A stretch of DNA of 64,000 bases, from NCBI GenBank assembly GCA_030748415.1, contig JASMMA010000005.1:129434-193433 (forward strand). Reading direction: 5' to 3'. Source of the DNA: Planctomycetota bacterium. Its GTDB lineage: Bacteria > Planctomycetota > UBA1135. Below the pieces are notes generated by a model. That model had not been told where the DNA came from and ran no database searches. It was given only the letters and a program-made list of their open reading frames with translations. Within the stretch, counting starts at the first letter, position 1. Each line of letters begins with the position of its first letter. Below, piece after piece: positions 55,912 to 64,000 of the stretch. A program made the position numbers and the translations under genes.

Positions 55912-57345
55912 ATGGAAAACTTCAGCATTTCTCAACTTCTTTACCTTGTTTCCACCGGATTTTTCATCATTGGAATAAAACAATTGTCCAAAGTAAAAAC
56001 TGCGCGAAGAGGAAACTTGCTCGCATCAGTTGGCATGGCACTCGCCATCGCCGTTACTTTGATTGCCCCTGGTGCCGGAATTCAGCTTGATTGGCAAGTT
56101 GTTGCCATTGGTGCAATTGCTGGCTCATTAATTGGCGGAATCATGGCCAAAAAGGTGGCAATGACAGGAATGCCAGAAATGGTTGCTCTGTTCAATGGCT
56201 TTGGGGGGCTGGCCTCCACAATGGTTGCCCTTTCTGAATTTTGGGGTCGCGGTTTTGGCGCAAGTATTACCCCAGAAAATGTCATTCTTGGCAGCGAGGT
56301 TTGGGCTATTGCGATTGCTTTGTCAGTTTTAGTGGGAACCGTGACCTTCACCGGTTCACTCATTGCGATGGGGAAACTGTCAGGAAAAATCAGTGGTAAT
56401 CCTGTACTTCTTCCAGGTCGGCACCTCATTGTTGCCACACTTCTAATTGGCGGAATTGCAATGGGTGTCATGGCCGGTTTCATGCAAGACTCTTATGACC
56501 CAGCCATGATGATTCTTGGTTTAACCGTTTGCGCCGCCCTCTTTGGGATTGTCTCTGTGCTCCCCATTGGTGGCGCAGATATGCCTGTTGTCGTTTCTCT
56601 TTTAAATTCTTACTCGGGAATCGCCGCCTCGATGGCGGGTTTCGTGATTGGCAACTCATTACTCATCGTCGCAGGCGCCCTTGTCGGTGCGGCTGGAATG
56701 ATATTGACCATCATCATGTGCAAGGCCATGAACCGCTCCCTTGGCAATGTCCTCGTGGGCGACTTTGGTGGGGACACCCCTTCTGGAGACGGGGGTGGTT
56801 CAGATGAATACATCGGAGTGAAGCAGGCCGGACCTGAAGAAGCTGCGATGATTCTCGAGGCGGCCGAGTCCGTCATCTTTATTCCGGGATACGGAATGGC
56901 TGTTGCCCAAGCACAGCATGTTGTGAAAGAACTCGGCGAAGAGCTTGAAAAGAGAGGGTCCGATGTCCGCTATGCAATCCATCCTGTTGCAGGTCGCATG
57001 CCTGGTCATATGAATGTTTTGTTGGCCGAGGCCGATGTTCCGTATGAACAGCTTCTTGAACTAGAGCGCATCAATAGCGATTTCAAAACAACCGATGTTT
57101 GTGTCATTGTTGGTGCAAACGATGTTGTTAATCCTTCGGCAATTGAGGATCCGCAATCCCCCATTGCAGGCATGCCAATCTTAAATGCCCACGAGTCGGG
57201 AACATCCTTGATGATTAAGCGCTCCCTTTCTCCTGGCTACGCCGGAATCAAAAACCCGCTCTTCGAACGCGAAAACAACTACATGTGCTTTGGTGACGGG
57301 AAAGCATTCCTGCAAGGCGTGCTAGACGAGTTGAAAGAATCTTAA
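55912..57345 (+). CDS. pntB: NAD(P) transhydrogenase subunit beta
   Basis: IPGYGMAVAQAQHVVKEL; HPVAGRMPGHMNVLLAEADVPY. Confidence 0.97.
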   Translation: MENFSISQLLYLVSTGFFIIGIKQLSKVKTARRGNLLASVGMALAIAVTLIAPGAGIQLDWQVVAIGAIAGSLIGGIMAKKVAMTGMPEMVALFNGFGGLASTMVALSEFWGRGFGASITPENVILGSEVWAIAIALSVLVGTVTFTGSLIAMGKLSGKISGNPVLLPGRHLIVATLLIGGIAMGVMAGFMQDSYDPAMMILGLTVCAALFGIVSVLPIGGADMPVVVSLLNSYSGIAASMAGFVIGNSLLIVAGALVGAAGMILTIIMCKAMNRSLGNVLVGDFGGDTPSGDGGGSDEYIGVKQAGPEEAAMILEAAESVIFIPGYGMAVAQAQHVVKELGEELEKRGSDVRYAIHPVAGRMPGHMNVLLAEADVPYEQLLELERINSDFKTTDVCVIVGANDVVNPSAIEDPQSPIAGMPILNAHESGTSLMIKRSLSPGYAGIKNPLFERENNYMCFGDGKAFLQGVLDELKES

Positions 57346-60300
57346 ACCGCAGTAAGGACTTCCCGCACATCCTCAGGCAATCCCTTAAGGGACTCGAACA
57401 AGGCTGGGTCCTCCTTTAGTTCTGCTTGGAGGGCATTGTTTGCCTCGGTGAGGGCGGAATCATTCCCCATTTTCTTAAGGATGCCAAGTTTGCAAGCAGC
57501 AGCATAAAGGTAGTCCAATCGGTAATTCCTTGAGCGAGCAATTTCTAAGCTCTCGTCACACGCTTGACGCGCCTCATCGAAACAACTAATGAACTCGTAA
57601 ACGCGGGCCTGGCATGAAAGGCCACGAGCAACTCCTTGCCAATGCCCAATGCTTCGGTTGATTTCTGTGTTACGCTGAAATGCCTTTAGTGCAGTTTCAC
57701 TATTCCTGTGAAGAGATTCTGGAACGGAATAGAGGTAGTGGCAGCCAATTCCAAAGTGAGTCATTGCCTGACCTGCAAGATCGCCTTCCTTGAGGGCTAA
57801 GCTTCGGTCAAAAAGGTCGAGAGCAGAATCAGAGCCTAGCCCGGAACGGTAACTCGCGGCAGAGTTAAGAAGCTGAGCGCCAACAGATTGAAGCCCAACA
57901 CACGATTCCCCACAAGAATCGAGCTCTTGGAGTGCGGATTCAAATGCCAAGCCTGCTCCTTCAGAATCGCCTTTTGCTTGTAAAGAAAGGGCTTTGTAGT
58001 GCAGTGCCTCGACGCGCCAAACAGGCTCTACATCGGGCGCGGCAAGAGTTTGGTCCGCCAACTTCACCGCCTTTTCAGGGTTGGCCGAGTGTTCAAACAA
58101 AACCAATTGGTTTCGCAACATCGCCGACAAAGATGTTGGTGCGCCATGGACTTCAGCATAGTCCAACAGTTCTTGGGCTTGGCGAACGGAGTCCTGAATA
58201 TCAGTTCGCAGCTCCTCGGGAGCTTCGGACAGGATTCTCAATTGAAGAACATGTTGTCGTATGCGACTCTGAAGCCCTTGCTCTTCCCCACGATTGGTCC
58301 ACCGGATTGCGTCGCCTACAAAGCAAAGACCGTCAGCATAAGAAGCGGTTGAGAATGCATGCTCTGCGGCGCGATACGAAAGCGTGGCGGCTTTTTCGCG
58401 AAAGCGCGGCCCGGCCTGACCCGCATGCTGAGCCGCCCTATATAAAAGATTTGGATTGTCTTGGTTTTCTTGTAGCCTTGCGGAAAGCAACCCTGCAATT
58501 TCTTTGTGATAATCAACTGCAACCTGTTTTAATGAGTCGGGTGCGGCTGACTCGGAAGGGTGGCGCAAGCGGTCCTGGAGCCCTTGAACAAAAACAGAAG
58601 ATGTAAAGGCATAAGTTCCGTCTTGCCCTGGAACATCTCGCAACACGCCGGCGGATTCAGCCGCACGAAGTTGGACAAAAAGTTCCTGACTGCTGAGGGT
58701 TAAGACTTCTGCCAACAAATAAATATCAAAATTTCGTCCAATACATGAAGCGCACTCCAAAACTCGAAGTGTTTCGAAATCCAAATCTGCCAATAAAGCG
58801 CGAGTAGAATCTCGAAGGGATGTTGGTGTTCCAAAAGGCAAACCGGAACCGCCGCGGGTCAACGAAAAAACACCTTTCTTGCGATCAACAGAAATATGCC
58901 CATCGCGAAGAGCATCTTGGGTCCAATCCACGAGCAATCTTGGAGTCCTCGCAGTTTCGTGGTCGCCCAAGCGCTCAATCATTGCTTTGGCAAGCTGAAG
59001 GTTTAAGCCAATTCCGTCAGGGCCAAGGAACTGGGTTGCCATGTTGGAATCCATCTGTAAATAACAATGGCGGAAACCTTGATCCTCCAGTTGTTGTGGC
59101 AAATTGCCAGCGTCAGCACGAGTAAAGCAAACCATAACAAGCACGGGCGCAGGAGTTCCTTGGTTCAACTCTTCAACCATGGCATCTAGTGCTTGGCGAG
59201 AAGAAGAATCTATGGATTCGGCATCATCAACAATGATTGCTATTGGTGTCCCACTCGTTCCTTCCCCCTGTGCCGACTTCAACATGCGTGCGACGGCACA
59301 GCCAACTGCTGAAGGACTCGTAGATAATTGCTCTGACTCTGGAATTTTTATCATTCCAGTAAGGAGGTCCGGCACCGGAAGCACGCGAATAAGAGCATTG
59401 CCGACATGGCGGAGGACATCGCTATGGTCTCCAGAGCTGCCATCAAGAGGGATGGTCCCGAGGAAGTCATCAAAAGCCTCTGCGAATGGGGCAAAGGGCC
59501 GGTTGCCGGCTCCTTCCGCCGGGCATGTGCCGCGCAAAATACGGCAGGGGCCGAATTCGGCGCGGACTCGGGCGGCAACTTCAGTGGCGGCCCGCGTTTT
59601 TCCTGAGCCGACCTCGCCATAAATTGCGAGAAAAGATGGCCGGCCACGAGAAAGATTGTCCGTCACTTCCGACGCGCGCTCACTGAATCCCGGCCACGCT
59701 AAAAACGGGAGCTGTTCCGCGCCGGCCAAGATTTGATCTAAGCTCTCTTTAGACTGGTTCTTTGTTTCTACTGTGGATTCGTGGGGCTCGGAAGTTTCTT
59801 TCTCGGAAACACGGCCTTTCATTAAACGAAAACCAACAAAGCAAAATGAAAAGAGCCCCGGAACTGCGGGGCCAAGCATGAGCCTGGGTTCGGCGGCTAG
59901 AACACAAAACCCTGAAAGAAGTAGAAGCATCAAGCCCCCAAAAACTCCGCTAAGCTTAAAGTTCGTTGAGGTTCGAAGCGAAAGAACGGCCCAAAACAGG
60001 CCAATAATCATTGTGGCTGTAAGAACAGCTTGGACAGGCTTATCTAAGAGGTCATGGTCTTCGCTTGGGATTAAAAACCAAGCAAGAGCACCGACGCTCG
60101 CCCATGCCAATCCTGGCATTGCCGCAGCGACGCGAAGGCTGAATGGAACTTTGGGACTTCGCCAATAGAAGCCTGCCGAGCATAAGGCCACACCGCCCAC
60201 GCCGCCTAGAATCAGAAAAATGGCACTAAGAAGGGCAGAAGTTGAATCCAAGTAAAAAACAGAACCCAGCACTGGAAAGACACAAGCACCTAGAAATACC

Positions 60301-61451
60301 GACCCCAAAAGGGTCAATGCGTTGCGGGCGTTGCTGGTTCCATCCAAGTCAACGCCTTGAAGTATGCCTCGCCCGAGATAAGCAGCTGCAAGGATAGGGA
60401 CCACACCAATTGATGCACCCATTGCGGTGGGGAACCACCAATCACTTTTCACCAGCATTTCTGGCAGAGGGGCAATCCCGTTAAGAAGCCGTGTCGAAAA
60501 GGCTGTAACAATACCGCCACAAACCAAGGCTGCTGTAATCCAAGTTGTTCGGTGGAAGGCGGGCCGAAAGAGAAGGCCCAATAGGGCGGCCAGGACAAGA
60601 AGCCCCCCAATCGCCCCAGCAAGCACCGACCCCTTCTTGCGAACATCCTTTGTGAAACCCAGAGATGTATAACTATTATTTGTTTTCCCAGTCTTGGCAT
60701 CGAACATCTGGCCGAATAGTTGGTAAACAGAGTAGGGTTTATCTACAGAATAATCCCGAAGTTCTACCTCCAAAATTTGGTCCAACTTCAGCGCACGGCA
60801 AAGGGACGACGCAATCTCTTGGTCCATTCCTTTTTTTTGAAACCTTTCAAAAAGGGCCGGAGTTAATATCGACTTAACTTCGCCAAAATTATGGGCGTAA
60901 AACTTTGGGAAAGAGTTAAGAACATAGGAAGCCTCATTGCGAAGTGTTGCAGAACGATTGGCGCGTTCGGATTGGAGATTTGAACGAACAACAACATCTA
61001 TCTGAAGGTTCCTCCTCCATGTAGGGATTAAGGTTGTCGCAAGAGATCGGGCAGCCCGAGTCACTGCCATCACATCTGGCTCGTCAATTAGCTCGTATTG
61101 AACAGCAGATGTCGGAATAAATCTAAGCAGTGGGAAAACTCCATAAAGGGTATCTTGGGAAATCCCAATCTGTTCATTTAGGTCAGCTCTCAATCCTTCA
61201 ATCTGCCGAGCGTAGTCCTTCTTCCTTTCTCCAGAATTCTTCAGTAGGGCCTCTGCTTCTTCGAGAGAATCAAGGCCCTGGTTGAACAGCTCAGGGTCAC
61301 CATGGACATTGATACCGAACCAGTAAAAGCTGTCCGCCGCAAGCAAGAGTGCTTCAATTTGCTCGCTTGAATCTATGGACACTTCATTTTCCTGTCCTGA
61401 GGCTTGTGGGGCCACAAGGAGGAAAAAAATCAGGAGGAAAGTTCGAGACAT
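57342..61451 (-). CDS. Membrane protein: exported N-domain, about 8-9 TM helices, AAA/STAND-type ATPase, C-terminal TPR-like region
   Basis: Signal peptide MSRTFLLIFFLLVAPQASG; Walker A GEVGSGKTRAA; Walker B IAIIVDDAESID; repeated helical C-terminus. Confidence 0.75.
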   Translation of the reverse strand: MSRTFLLIFFLLVAPQASGQENEVSIDSSEQIEALLLAADSFYWFGINVHGDPELFNQGLDSLEEAEALLKNSGERKKDYARQIEGLRADLNEQIGISQDTLYGVFPLLRFIPTSAVQYELIDEPDVMAVTRAARSLATTLIPTWRRNLQIDVVVRSNLQSERANRSATLRNEASYVLNSFPKFYAHNFGEVKSILTPALFERFQKKGMDQEIASSLCRALKLDQILEVELRDYSVDKPYSVYQLFGQMFDAKTGKTNNSYTSLGFTKDVRKKGSVLAGAIGGLLVLAALLGLLFRPAFHRTTWITAALVCGGIVTAFSTRLLNGIAPLPEMLVKSDWWFPTAMGASIGVVPILAAAYLGRGILQGVDLDGTSNARNALTLLGSVFLGACVFPVLGSVFYLDSTSALLSAIFLILGGVGGVALCSAGFYWRSPKVPFSLRVAAAMPGLAWASVGALAWFLIPSEDHDLLDKPVQAVLTATMIIGLFWAVLSLRTSTNFKLSGVFGGLMLLLLSGFCVLAAEPRLMLGPAVPGLFSFCFVGFRLMKGRVSEKETSEPHESTVETKNQSKESLDQILAGAEQLPFLAWPGFSERASEVTDNLSRGRPSFLAIYGEVGSGKTRAATEVAARVRAEFGPCRILRGTCPAEGAGNRPFAPFAEAFDDFLGTIPLDGSSGDHSDVLRHVGNALIRVLPVPDLLTGMIKIPESEQLSTSPSAVGCAVARMLKSAQGEGTSGTPIAIIVDDAESIDSSSRQALDAMVEELNQGTPAPVLVMVCFTRADAGNLPQQLEDQGFRHCYLQMDSNMATQFLGPDGIGLNLQLAKAMIERLGDHETARTPRLLVDWTQDALRDGHISVDRKKGVFSLTRGGSGLPFGTPTSLRDSTRALLADLDFETLRVLECASCIGRNFDIYLLAEVLTLSSQELFVQLRAAESAGVLRDVPGQDGTYAFTSSVFVQGLQDRLRHPSESAAPDSLKQVAVDYHKEIAGLLSARLQENQDNPNLLYRAAQHAGQAGPRFREKAATLSYRAAEHAFSTASYADGLCFVGDAIRWTNRGEEQGLQSRIRQHVLQLRILSEAPEELRTDIQDSVRQAQELLDYAEVHGAPTSLSAMLRNQLVLFEHSANPEKAVKLADQTLAAPDVEPVWRVEALHYKALSLQAKGDSEGAGLAFESALQELDSCGESCVGLQSVGAQLLNSAASYRSGLGSDSALDLFDRSLALKEGDLAGQAMTHFGIGCHYLYSVPESLHRNSETALKAFQRNTEINRSIGHWQGVARGLSCQARVYEFISCFDEARQACDESLEIARSRNYRLDYLYAAACKLGILKKMGNDSALTEANNALQAELKEDPALFESLKGLPEDVREVLTAV

Positions 61452-61459
61452 GTTTATCG

Positions 61460-64000
61460 TTACGCTTTCAGAATGGAGGCCGCCATTTCTTTGCATTCGG
61501 TGGCTTTTTCAAAATTACCCAAGGCCTTGTGGACTCGAGAAAGGGATTTCCAGGTTTGCCCAACAGACCGGTGACTATCGCCCAAAAGTTTTCGACGAAC
61601 GGAAAGGGCGCTTTCCAAATGCTGGAGAGCCTCTTCTCTTTCGCCTTGCTTATGAAACAAACCGGCAAGGTTGTAATGAGCTGTTGCAACATGGGTATGC
61701 ACTTCACCATAGATTTCTCGGAAGATCTCAAGTGCACGGACGAAACACTCCCGTGCCTCTTCTAGATTGCCAAGCTTCCGCTCTAATAAACCAAGGCTGC
61801 TATAGCCAGCAGCTACCTGCGGGTGCGGGTCATCAAAATGTTTGCGGCGAATTTTCAACGCTTTAGAAAAGCACTCTTGCGCCTTTTCTTCTTCTCCAAT
61901 TCTTGCACAAACACCACCGAGGCTGTGCCAACTTGAGGCAGTTTGGGGGTGGTTGTCTCCAAAGGTTCGGCGACGCACTTGAAGGGCGCGCTCGTGAAAG
62001 TCTTTGGCTAACTCTGTTTCTTCGGCACCCGCCAATAGATTCCCAAGGTTGTTGCAACTGGTTGCCACATGGGGGTGATTCTCGCCATAAACTTCGAGAA
62101 AAATCTCAAGAGCTTCCTCGTAACAGATTCGAGCTTTATCAATATTTCCAGAGCTCGCGTGGAGGCCGCCCAAGTTGTTAAGGCCACTGGCGATTGTTGG
62201 GTGAGAGTCCCCCCACAACTTTCGGAAAATCGAGAGCGATTTTTCGTAATGAGCTCGGGCAGACTCGATATTTCCCCAACGACGCTCAACCAAGCCTAAG
62301 TTGTTGTGGCTTGCCGCAACGTCTGGGTGGTGGTTCCCCAAAATTTCCTGGCGAACCGAGAGGGCTCGCTCATATAAATCCTTTGCGGCTGCAAACTCCC
62401 CAAGGTCTGCGTGTAAAGAGGCCAGGTTATTGAGACAAGTAGCGGTTGCAGGATGTTCCTCGCCATGAATGCCTTGCCGGATTTCTAAAGCTTTTTCGCA
62501 ATAGGTTCGGGCGTCCTCTAGTTTCCCAAGCTTTCGAGACAATGTTCCAAGGTTGCCATTGAGAGTTGCAATGGAGGCATGTTTTTCGCCGTATAGATTT
62601 TTAAACAAAGCAAGAGCTTCTAGATAGCACGGGCCAGCGGATTCCAAGTCCCCCATTTTTCTATGGAGGTTGCCTAGATTATTCCAGCTGGTTGCCACAC
62701 TTGGGTGGTCATTGCCAAGGCACCCCCTTCGAATGTCCAAAGACCGCTGGCTCCACCGACGGCAAGATTCGTAATCTCCAAGGTCATATGTGGCAGAAGC
62801 CACAGCACCAAATAGGTCGCCCAATATTTCTGAGTCAGGAAATCCAATTTCCTCCACCCTATTCGATAGTTTTTCCAAAAATTCTTTTCGGACTTCAAAG
62901 GCGAACTCCTCTTCCAGCAAAGCGCTCGCTGCAAGGCCTGCATGGAGGTCGTTTACTGATGGAAGTTGCATAAGGCCCTCAGTAATCAGGCCCAGGTCTT
63001 CGCCTTCTCGAAGAATCTTGCCCAGCAGTTCTCCTGCGCATGTTGCCGCGCGTGGGCTTCCTTCTTCAATAAACTCCCACAAAAAACCATCCCCATCGGT
63101 GGAAAGTTTCGCCGACAAGGCTGACTGGATGGCACCAACGAGGAGTGGATGGCTGGCATTTTTTTCAAAAACTTCCAGAAGTTCTTTGGAAGTATCGGCT
63201 TGGCCACTTTCAACCAAATATTGCCCAAGGACGTGCTCTAGTAAAAGATCTGCCGTAAAAACAACTTGGCGACCATCATCGGAAGGTTCCTCCGAAAGGA
63301 CACCCTCTTGACGGCTAAGTCGATGATACGGAGATGCAATGTCGGTGCGTTGCAAATCTTCTGATGTTCGCTCGTCTTGAATCAAATCGTCATAGTCAAA
63401 GCGAGGGCTTGATGTTTCCCAAGAAATCTCCGCCAGTTGGCGAAGAAAGCGGCCCCTATCGCCAGATCGGGCGGCAAGGTTTTCAAAAAATGCCTCAAAG
63501 ATTCCATAACGATCTAGCTCCCTGGGGAGCTTTTCCCCAGAAAATGTTCGGAGAAATATCCGGAGAATCTGGGGGTTCGACAAAAGCGAGAGCACGCGAC
63601 GGCTTTGGCTTGTAAGTTCTTGATAATCGAATTTCGGCGCAAACAGTTCGCCCCCTGCATTCGAATATTTTGACCACATTGTTTCTATCTCGCGGTGCGA
63701 AAGTGGAGGCAGGGAAGTGGTTGGAATTCCGCCCACATTTCGCTTTTCTCCTTGCTCCGCCGGGAAAAAGAGTCGCTCCGCTTCTTCAGCGTCCACGCTC
63801 ATCCAATCACTTCCTCCCGGCCTCAAGGAAAATAAAGTCCGGAGGCCGGGTTGACCAAAAGATGCACGACCAAGGCGAAGGATAGAGCGCAAAAGTTCTT
63901 CACGGCCAGCATGGCCCCCAACGCCATCAAGCAGGATGACGAGGGGTTGTTCTTTCGTGCCACACTTATTAACAAAACTGGATATGTCAACAGAGGGGTT
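61460..64000 (-). CDS. STAND/NACHT-like NTPase with ten 42-residue kinesin-light-chain TPRs, N-terminus outside the window
   Basis: Frame stays open to the right edge (NPSVDISSFVNKCGTKEQPLVILLDGVGGHAGREELLRS, Walker B-like LVILLDGVGG); ten LGxxHPxxA...NNLGxLxxxxG units. Confidence 0.75.
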   Translation of the reverse strand, partial: NPSVDISSFVNKCGTKEQPLVILLDGVGGHAGREELLRSILRLGRASFGQPGLRTLFSLRPGGSDWMSVDAEEAERLFFPAEQGEKRNVGGIPTTSLPPLSHREIETMWSKYSNAGGELFAPKFDYQELTSQSRRVLSLLSNPQILRIFLRTFSGEKLPRELDRYGIFEAFFENLAARSGDRGRFLRQLAEISWETSSPRFDYDDLIQDERTSEDLQRTDIASPYHRLSRQEGVLSEEPSDDGRQVVFTADLLLEHVLGQYLVESGQADTSKELLEVFEKNASHPLLVGAIQSALSAKLSTDGDGFLWEFIEEGSPRAATCAGELLGKILREGEDLGLITEGLMQLPSVNDLHAGLAASALLEEEFAFEVRKEFLEKLSNRVEEIGFPDSEILGDLFGAVASATYDLGDYESCRRWSQRSLDIRRGCLGNDHPSVATSWNNLGNLHRKMGDLESAGPCYLEALALFKNLYGEKHASIATLNGNLGTLSRKLGKLEDARTYCEKALEIRQGIHGEEHPATATCLNNLASLHADLGEFAAAKDLYERALSVRQEILGNHHPDVAASHNNLGLVERRWGNIESARAHYEKSLSIFRKLWGDSHPTIASGLNNLGGLHASSGNIDKARICYEEALEIFLEVYGENHPHVATSCNNLGNLLAGAEETELAKDFHERALQVRRRTFGDNHPQTASSWHSLGGVCARIGEEEKAQECFSKALKIRRKHFDDPHPQVAAGYSSLGLLERKLGNLEEARECFVRALEIFREIYGEVHTHVATAHYNLAGLFHKQGEREEALQHLESALSVRRKLLGDSHRSVGQTWKSLSRVHKALGNFEKATECKEMAASILKA
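61463..62722 (-). repeat. Ten tandem 42-aa (about 126-bp) TPR-coding units
   Basis: Units aligned by eye from LGNDHPSVATSWNNLG to LGDSHRSVGQTWKSLS. Confidence 0.85.

Follow-up and report, generated by a model that had tools for sequence, protein, structure and literature searches.

NLR-like STAND proteins are known in bacteria as anti-phage proteins. The gene pair described here, consisting of a soluble protein (A) and a membrane protein (B) from a Planctomycetota bacterium, is similar to Avs/AVAST and bNACHT in that A joins an effector-like domain, a STAND NTPase and a repeat array, but differs from them in its context without defence genes, its different N-terminal module, its conserved TPRs and its membrane STAND partner. 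A logic leading from surface sensing to RNA cleavage is known from Ire1 in eukaryotes. By analogy only, the pair is comparable to Ire1 and RNase L, where a HEPN (KEN) RNase responds to surface or stress sensing through oligomerisation; unlike these eukaryotic kinase-KEN fusions, A and B are two STAND proteins with no kinase in the pair. Among bacterial HEPN proteins, HEPN-STAND-TPR fusions are a listed kind, represented by Npun_F6454, MED222_16016 and Desac_1927 (Anantharaman et al. 2013, PMC3710099), and membrane-linked HEPN proteins have been proposed to convert signals from the cell surface into RNA breakdown (PMC3710099). Like these three proteins, A combines a predicted HEPN-type domain with a STAND NTPase and TPRs in a single chain, and it keeps the Rx4-6H motif; unlike them, its module comes from a Planctomycetota family outside Pfam, and it has a Cys4 start, a beta-rich insert and a membrane STAND partner, with no S1/OB domain seen. 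B resembles the Planctomycetota kinase-AAA_16-TPR proteins (PknK/MalT-like), which its cytoplasmic AAA_16 and TPR-like half matches in searches, but in place of a kinase it carries an exported domain and roughly nine TM helices. According to the account cited in PMC11032199, the actinobacterial PknG-TPR protein is signalled by a membrane protein, GlnX (GlnH-GlnX-PknG). As far as that account goes, the proposed role of A as a soluble TPR signalling protein signalled by its membrane partner B would be similar. The differences are that PknG, unlike the HEPN-like STAND protein A, is a kinase, and that B is itself an NTPase.

On the whole, what appears to be new here, as judged from sequence, is the pairing of a HEPN-like STAND-TPR protein with a membrane STAND receptor, the HEPN-STAND-TPR kind itself being already known. 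The best explanation, to which we give a little less than an even chance, is an envelope-to-cytoplasm relay in which B, a membrane STAND protein, controls A, a soluble one, and in which the output is probably RNA cleavage.

Anatomy of the two genes

The window analysed is a 64-kb stretch (C55:129434-193433) of a 2.46-Mb assembly (genome G000). A and B are both found as long ORFs on the minus strand, and the part of A beyond the window was taken from the same contig (full length 1296 aa, L002:894-4784), its 5' end being the equivalent of window position 65350. The features are as follows, in window positions.

61460..64000, minus strand: gene A (ORF), the C-terminal two thirds in the window, 846 of 1296 codons
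Beyond the window, same contig: P-loop GAGKT of A, aa 406-410, sequence motif
63923..63943, minus strand: Walker B LVILLDG of A, aa 470-476; column hhhhDG in most distant homologues
63815..63829, minus strand: putative sensor-1-like SLRPG of A, aa 508-512, from STAND anatomy
61481..62803, minus strand: ten 42-residue kinesin-light-chain-type TPRs of A, aa ~850-1290 (Pfam TPR_12, KLC structures)
61452-61459, minus strand: gap between the A stop and the B start, 8 nt (9 nt in UBA7888)
57342..61451, minus strand: gene B, 1369 aa, membrane STAND/AAA_16 protein
61386..61451, minus strand: putative signal-peptide-like N-terminus of B, aa 1-22, from hydropathy
60627..61385, minus strand: putative exported (periplasmic) domain of B, aa 23-275 (~250 aa), no Pfam family
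59829..60626, minus strand: about nine TM helices of B, aa 276-541, from hydropathy
59595..59618, minus strand: Walker A GEVGSGKT of B, aa 612-619 (AAA_16, E 4e-13)
59217..59243, minus strand: Walker B IAIIVDDAE of B, aa 737-745, sequence motif
57345..58571, minus strand: C-terminal helical, degenerate TPR-like region of B, aa 961-1369, sub-threshold TPR matches only

The stop codon of A ends at 61460 and the ATG of B is located at 61451, in accordance with the first-pass annotation, which had described two large co-directional genes 8 nt apart. Chance ORFs are excluded by the length of the frames together with a pN of about 0.12 against a saturated pS of about 0.78. An alternative ATG for B at 61496 was rejected, since it would overlap A, while the MSR start at 61451 with its signal-peptide-like sequence is the one conserved in UBA7888. 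At the other end, the 3' end of B and the stop of the convergent pntB gene overlap tail to tail by 4 nt (57342-57345), leaving no space for a terminator between them; the start of A is separated from a divergent acyltransferase gene by 68 bp.

Protein A begins with a zinc-ribbon-like Cys4 segment at 8-35 (C8, C13, C32 and C35, kept in UBA7888), followed by the HEPN-like helical module (~46-240), a beta-rich segment (~241-345), the STAND NTPase and the ten TPRs. The sequence PLVILLDGVGG at the right edge of the window had been taken for a NACHT/STAND Walker B, a reading borne out by the P-loop GAGKT (406-410) before it and the sensor-1-like SLRP (508-511) after it. With P-loop, hhhhD Walker B, sensor-1 Arg and C-terminal repeat array all present, A is a STAND NTPase; in Pfam the NTPase has a weak nSTAND_NTPase5 match (E 0.002, below the cut-off). 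The ten kinesin-light-chain TPRs reported earlier are likewise found, as ten 42-residue units at 850-1290 (TPR_12, E 6.5e-112), and in a PDB sequence search, where A matches TPR structures only, they are most similar to kinesin light chain (KLC structures, E 4.7e-34).

As for B, its description as a membrane AAA-TPR protein stands for the membrane and AAA_16 parts (PF13191, 50.6 bits vs a cut-off of 32.6), while the TPR part draws only sub-threshold matches. With an AAA_16 domain and intact Walker A and B motifs, B is a STAND/AAA_16 protein whose C-terminal repeats are only weakly TPR. The K/R distribution of the loops fits an N-out, C-in topology; the number of nine TM helices is a hydropathy estimate, since in the UBA7888 protein eight are called and one stretch falls below the cut. 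A PDB sequence search with B gave no match, and AlphaFold (single- and two-sequence) modelled the exported domain with a pLDDT of about 44. A CsgG/LpoB/FlgO-like fold, considered for this domain from its strand-helix pattern, was dropped, as no profile supports it. Homologues of the exported domain are found only in UBA7888 and in genome G166, where the exported-TM part is 33% identical and the locus is rearranged or broken. This locus (L033:2484-15923) contains a CHAT-TPR protein, a kinase-WD40 ORF with frame breaks, a truncated B-like receptor gene and a Trans_reg_C-AAA_16 protein, with a 7-nt tandem repeat (ACCAGCG) at one frame break, reflecting decay, rearrangement or misassembly. The B-like ORF there runs into a kinase without an N-lobe, with a second frame break at the 7-nt tandem repeat; as these three causes are indistinguishable, the link between B and kinases was dropped and is not used as evidence.

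The HEPN-like module and its family

Beyond the right edge of the window, where the effector domain of A had been expected, lies the HEPN-like N-terminal module, a plausible effector. It carries RNKFAH at 193-198 (R193, N194, H198), that is, an Rx4-6H motif with a polar residue after R, the pattern defining catalytic HEPN domains (PMC3710099), and this motif is conserved across the module family. Among 25 diverse sequences, 24 keep R193, 24 keep N194 and 23 keep H198, counts that are if anything low because the set includes G449e, a sequence cut from wrong coordinates that accounts for one mismatch at most columns. The three residues are among the seven best conserved columns of this alignment. 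In Pfam, the module matches PF18735 (E 0.0011 for A, best 0.00029) and PF18737 (E 0.094), two HEPN families whose matches both centre on RNKFAH, and weakly DUF4080, all below gathering score. An hhalign comparison with the RiboL-PSP-HEPN alignment, from which G449e was left out, gives a score of 32.2 (E 4.6e-4, probability only 33%), and the motifs align in register; the best of 60 shuffled decoys scores 13.5. AlphaFold (single- and two-sequence) models the N-terminus as helical with a pLDDT of only about 44 (44.8), and Foldseek with this low-pLDDT model returns an unrelated coiled coil as the best match (E 0.086) and a HEPN toxin only at E ~1. Based on the R-N-H conservation, the sub-threshold Pfam matches and the profile match above all 60 decoys, we consider that the module is quite probably a HEPN domain.

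A profile search detects the module in 28 of 314 sampled Planctomycetota genomes at E up to 1e-6. When 21 of the homologues and A itself were scanned, the domain behind the module was a protein kinase in 15 of the 22 and AAA_16 in five, which points to a signalling part used by different proteins and not to an effector reserved for defence. In many Planctomycetota the module (PLPLAR ... YRNxxxGHGA), for which there is no Pfam family, is located N-terminal to Ser/Thr kinases with R-N-H conserved, at L100, L102, L124, L125, L098, L042, L046, L054 and other loci. A lineage-specific expansion is seen in genome G449 (L025), with 13 matches.

Distant A-like proteins of 1150-1400 aa and 20-29% identity are present in seven further planctomycete genomes. 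R-N-H is gone in six of the seven; G449 keeps it, but its protein is a kinase. R-N-H has been lost from the A-like STAND-TPR proteins that come nearest to A in their overall layout, among them those encoded in chemosensory operons. In two genera of one family, an A-like gene is located 1-3 nt upstream of cheA in an operon with CheA-REC, MCP, CheW and further genes, and the operon in G222 has an additional second MCP gene. The chemosensory operons led by A-like genes without R-N-H are found at L023:8761-19134 and L026:8647-18745.

These relatives bear on the alternative that A and B are a pure signalling pair, in which the HEPN-like module would serve RNA binding or dimerisation without catalysis and the STAND proteins would act as a scaffold or regulator, as in the chemosensory A-like proteins or in PknG-GlnX. 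The many A-like relatives without R-N-H, the fusions to kinases and AAA_16 and the chemosensory operons are in accordance with it, as is the existence of non-catalytic HEPN domains (PMC3710099), but A itself retains R, N and H, which rank with the most strongly conserved columns in the wider family, and within A the HEPN-like part belongs to the best conserved stretches. We take this alternative to be unlikely.

Distribution, selection and neighbourhood

That the two genes form a unit, as first annotated, agrees with their distribution, although the joint conservation covers only two genomes of one genus. A and B occur together in G000 and in the same-genus G119 (UBA7888), with 78-80% identity, the spacing of 8 or 9 nt kept and a single insertion site; full-length A or B is found in none of the other genomes among the 154 searched in the order, and 24 other genomes of the family lack the pair. 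One scan of genome contigs gave UBA7888 as the sole match. In at least 12 of these family genomes, from seven genera, pntB is immediately followed by a plsC-like gene, while in this genus (two genomes) the A-B pair occupies the pntB-plsC junction, inverted. The pntB-plsC adjacency is taken as the ancestral arrangement, split by the pair as an acquired cassette would split it. The comparison of occupied and empty sites supports joint acquisition, loss everywhere else being less parsimonious.

Between G000 and UBA7888 both genes have a pN of 0.12-0.13 and a pS of 0.77-0.79 (dN ~0.13, dS saturated). The low pN against the near-saturated pS shows strong purifying selection on A and B. Within A, the HEPN-like and beta-rich parts are best conserved (85%), followed by the TPR array (83%); the linker/NTPase is the least conserved larger domain (72%), and the 45-residue Cys4 start is lower (69%). 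In this two-genome comparison, no faster evolution of the TPR array than of the rest of A is seen.

The neighbours are housekeeping genes, namely pntAB, the acyltransferase gene, UPF0014 and ABC-ATPase genes, a phosphatase-like protein and a CitMHS transporter, and no defence genes or defence island are found in the neighbourhood. PADLOC returned only generic TPR models and other very weak ones, with no significant match to known defence families (Avs/bNACHT). Viral contigs and plasmids searched with the N-terminus of A, and plasmids searched with one module homologue, yielded no relatives. In the first-pass annotation, a soluble sensor with a membrane partner had been proposed as a defence or stress system; the stress or signalling part of this proposal fits better, and the defence part is not borne out by island context, PADLOC, viral and plasmid searches, TPR evolution or the chemosensory setting of A-like genes.

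In an anti-phage system, A would act as a STAND immune receptor of the NLR-like type: its TPRs would bind a phage product and its HEPN module would abort infection by RNA cutting, with B as a membrane sensor or a second effector (pore or depolariser). NLR-like STAND proteins are known as anti-phage systems, and the patchy, cassette-like occurrence of the pair would fit this role, but the single-copy locus in its housekeeping surroundings and the other negative results above speak against it. The listing of HEPN-STAND-TPR fusions as a bacterial HEPN kind predicted to be mostly active (PMC3710099) also favours defence, which we nevertheless hold to be improbable. It is very improbable that A and B are functionally independent neighbours transferred together by chance, for although the B exported-TM part occurs without A in G166 and A-like proteins occur without B elsewhere, the two genes share strand, 8-9 nt spacing, joint presence or absence at one site and similar constraint.

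A possible relay from envelope to cytoplasm

In the relay we prefer, the exported domain of B would sense an extracytoplasmic cue, as suggested by the topology, and the change would travel through the roughly nine TM helices to the cytoplasmic AAA_16/STAND-TPR part. B would then contact the TPR superhelix of A, a physical contact assumed only from the adjacency of the genes, and A would shift, as known for the STAND family, from an ADP-like closed to an ATP-like oligomeric state. Oligomerisation may pair the HEPN-like modules of A, with predicted RNA cutting, judging from the motif, and a shift or arrest of gene expression following the logic of Ire1 and RNase L. What the sequences establish is the order of the domains, intact NTPase motifs, an R-N-H motif kept in A, the conserved pairing and purifying selection, while sensing, contact, oligomerisation and cleavage are predicted from the protein families. 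The architecture, the joint conservation, the purifying selection on both genes, the HEPN-like signature of A, the use of the module as a signalling part, the A-like genes in chemosensory operons and the precedents of membrane-linked HEPN signalling (PMC3710099) and of GlnX-PknG (PMC11032199) speak for this relay. Against it stand the AlphaFold pLDDT of about 44 for A and the lack of a usable Foldseek match, the Pfam matches below gathering score, the hhalign probability of 33%, the loss of R-N-H in the architecturally closest A-like proteins and the restriction to two genomes of one genus. A more specific version, a bacterial Ire1-like system in which B, a 9-TM receptor STAND with an exported sensor, controls A as a soluble HEPN-RNase STAND, and which would have derived from a broader Planctomycetota class with the module N-terminal to Ser/Thr kinases, is doubtful.

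The predicted role of R193, N194 and H198 makes the HEPN reading directly testable. If true, the relay would link cell-surface sensing to RNA cleavage in bacteria via paired STAND NTPases, and would give a function to a planctomycete module that is absent from Pfam and most often fused to protein kinases. A bacterial kinase-HEPN class could be of wider interest than the A-B pair itself.
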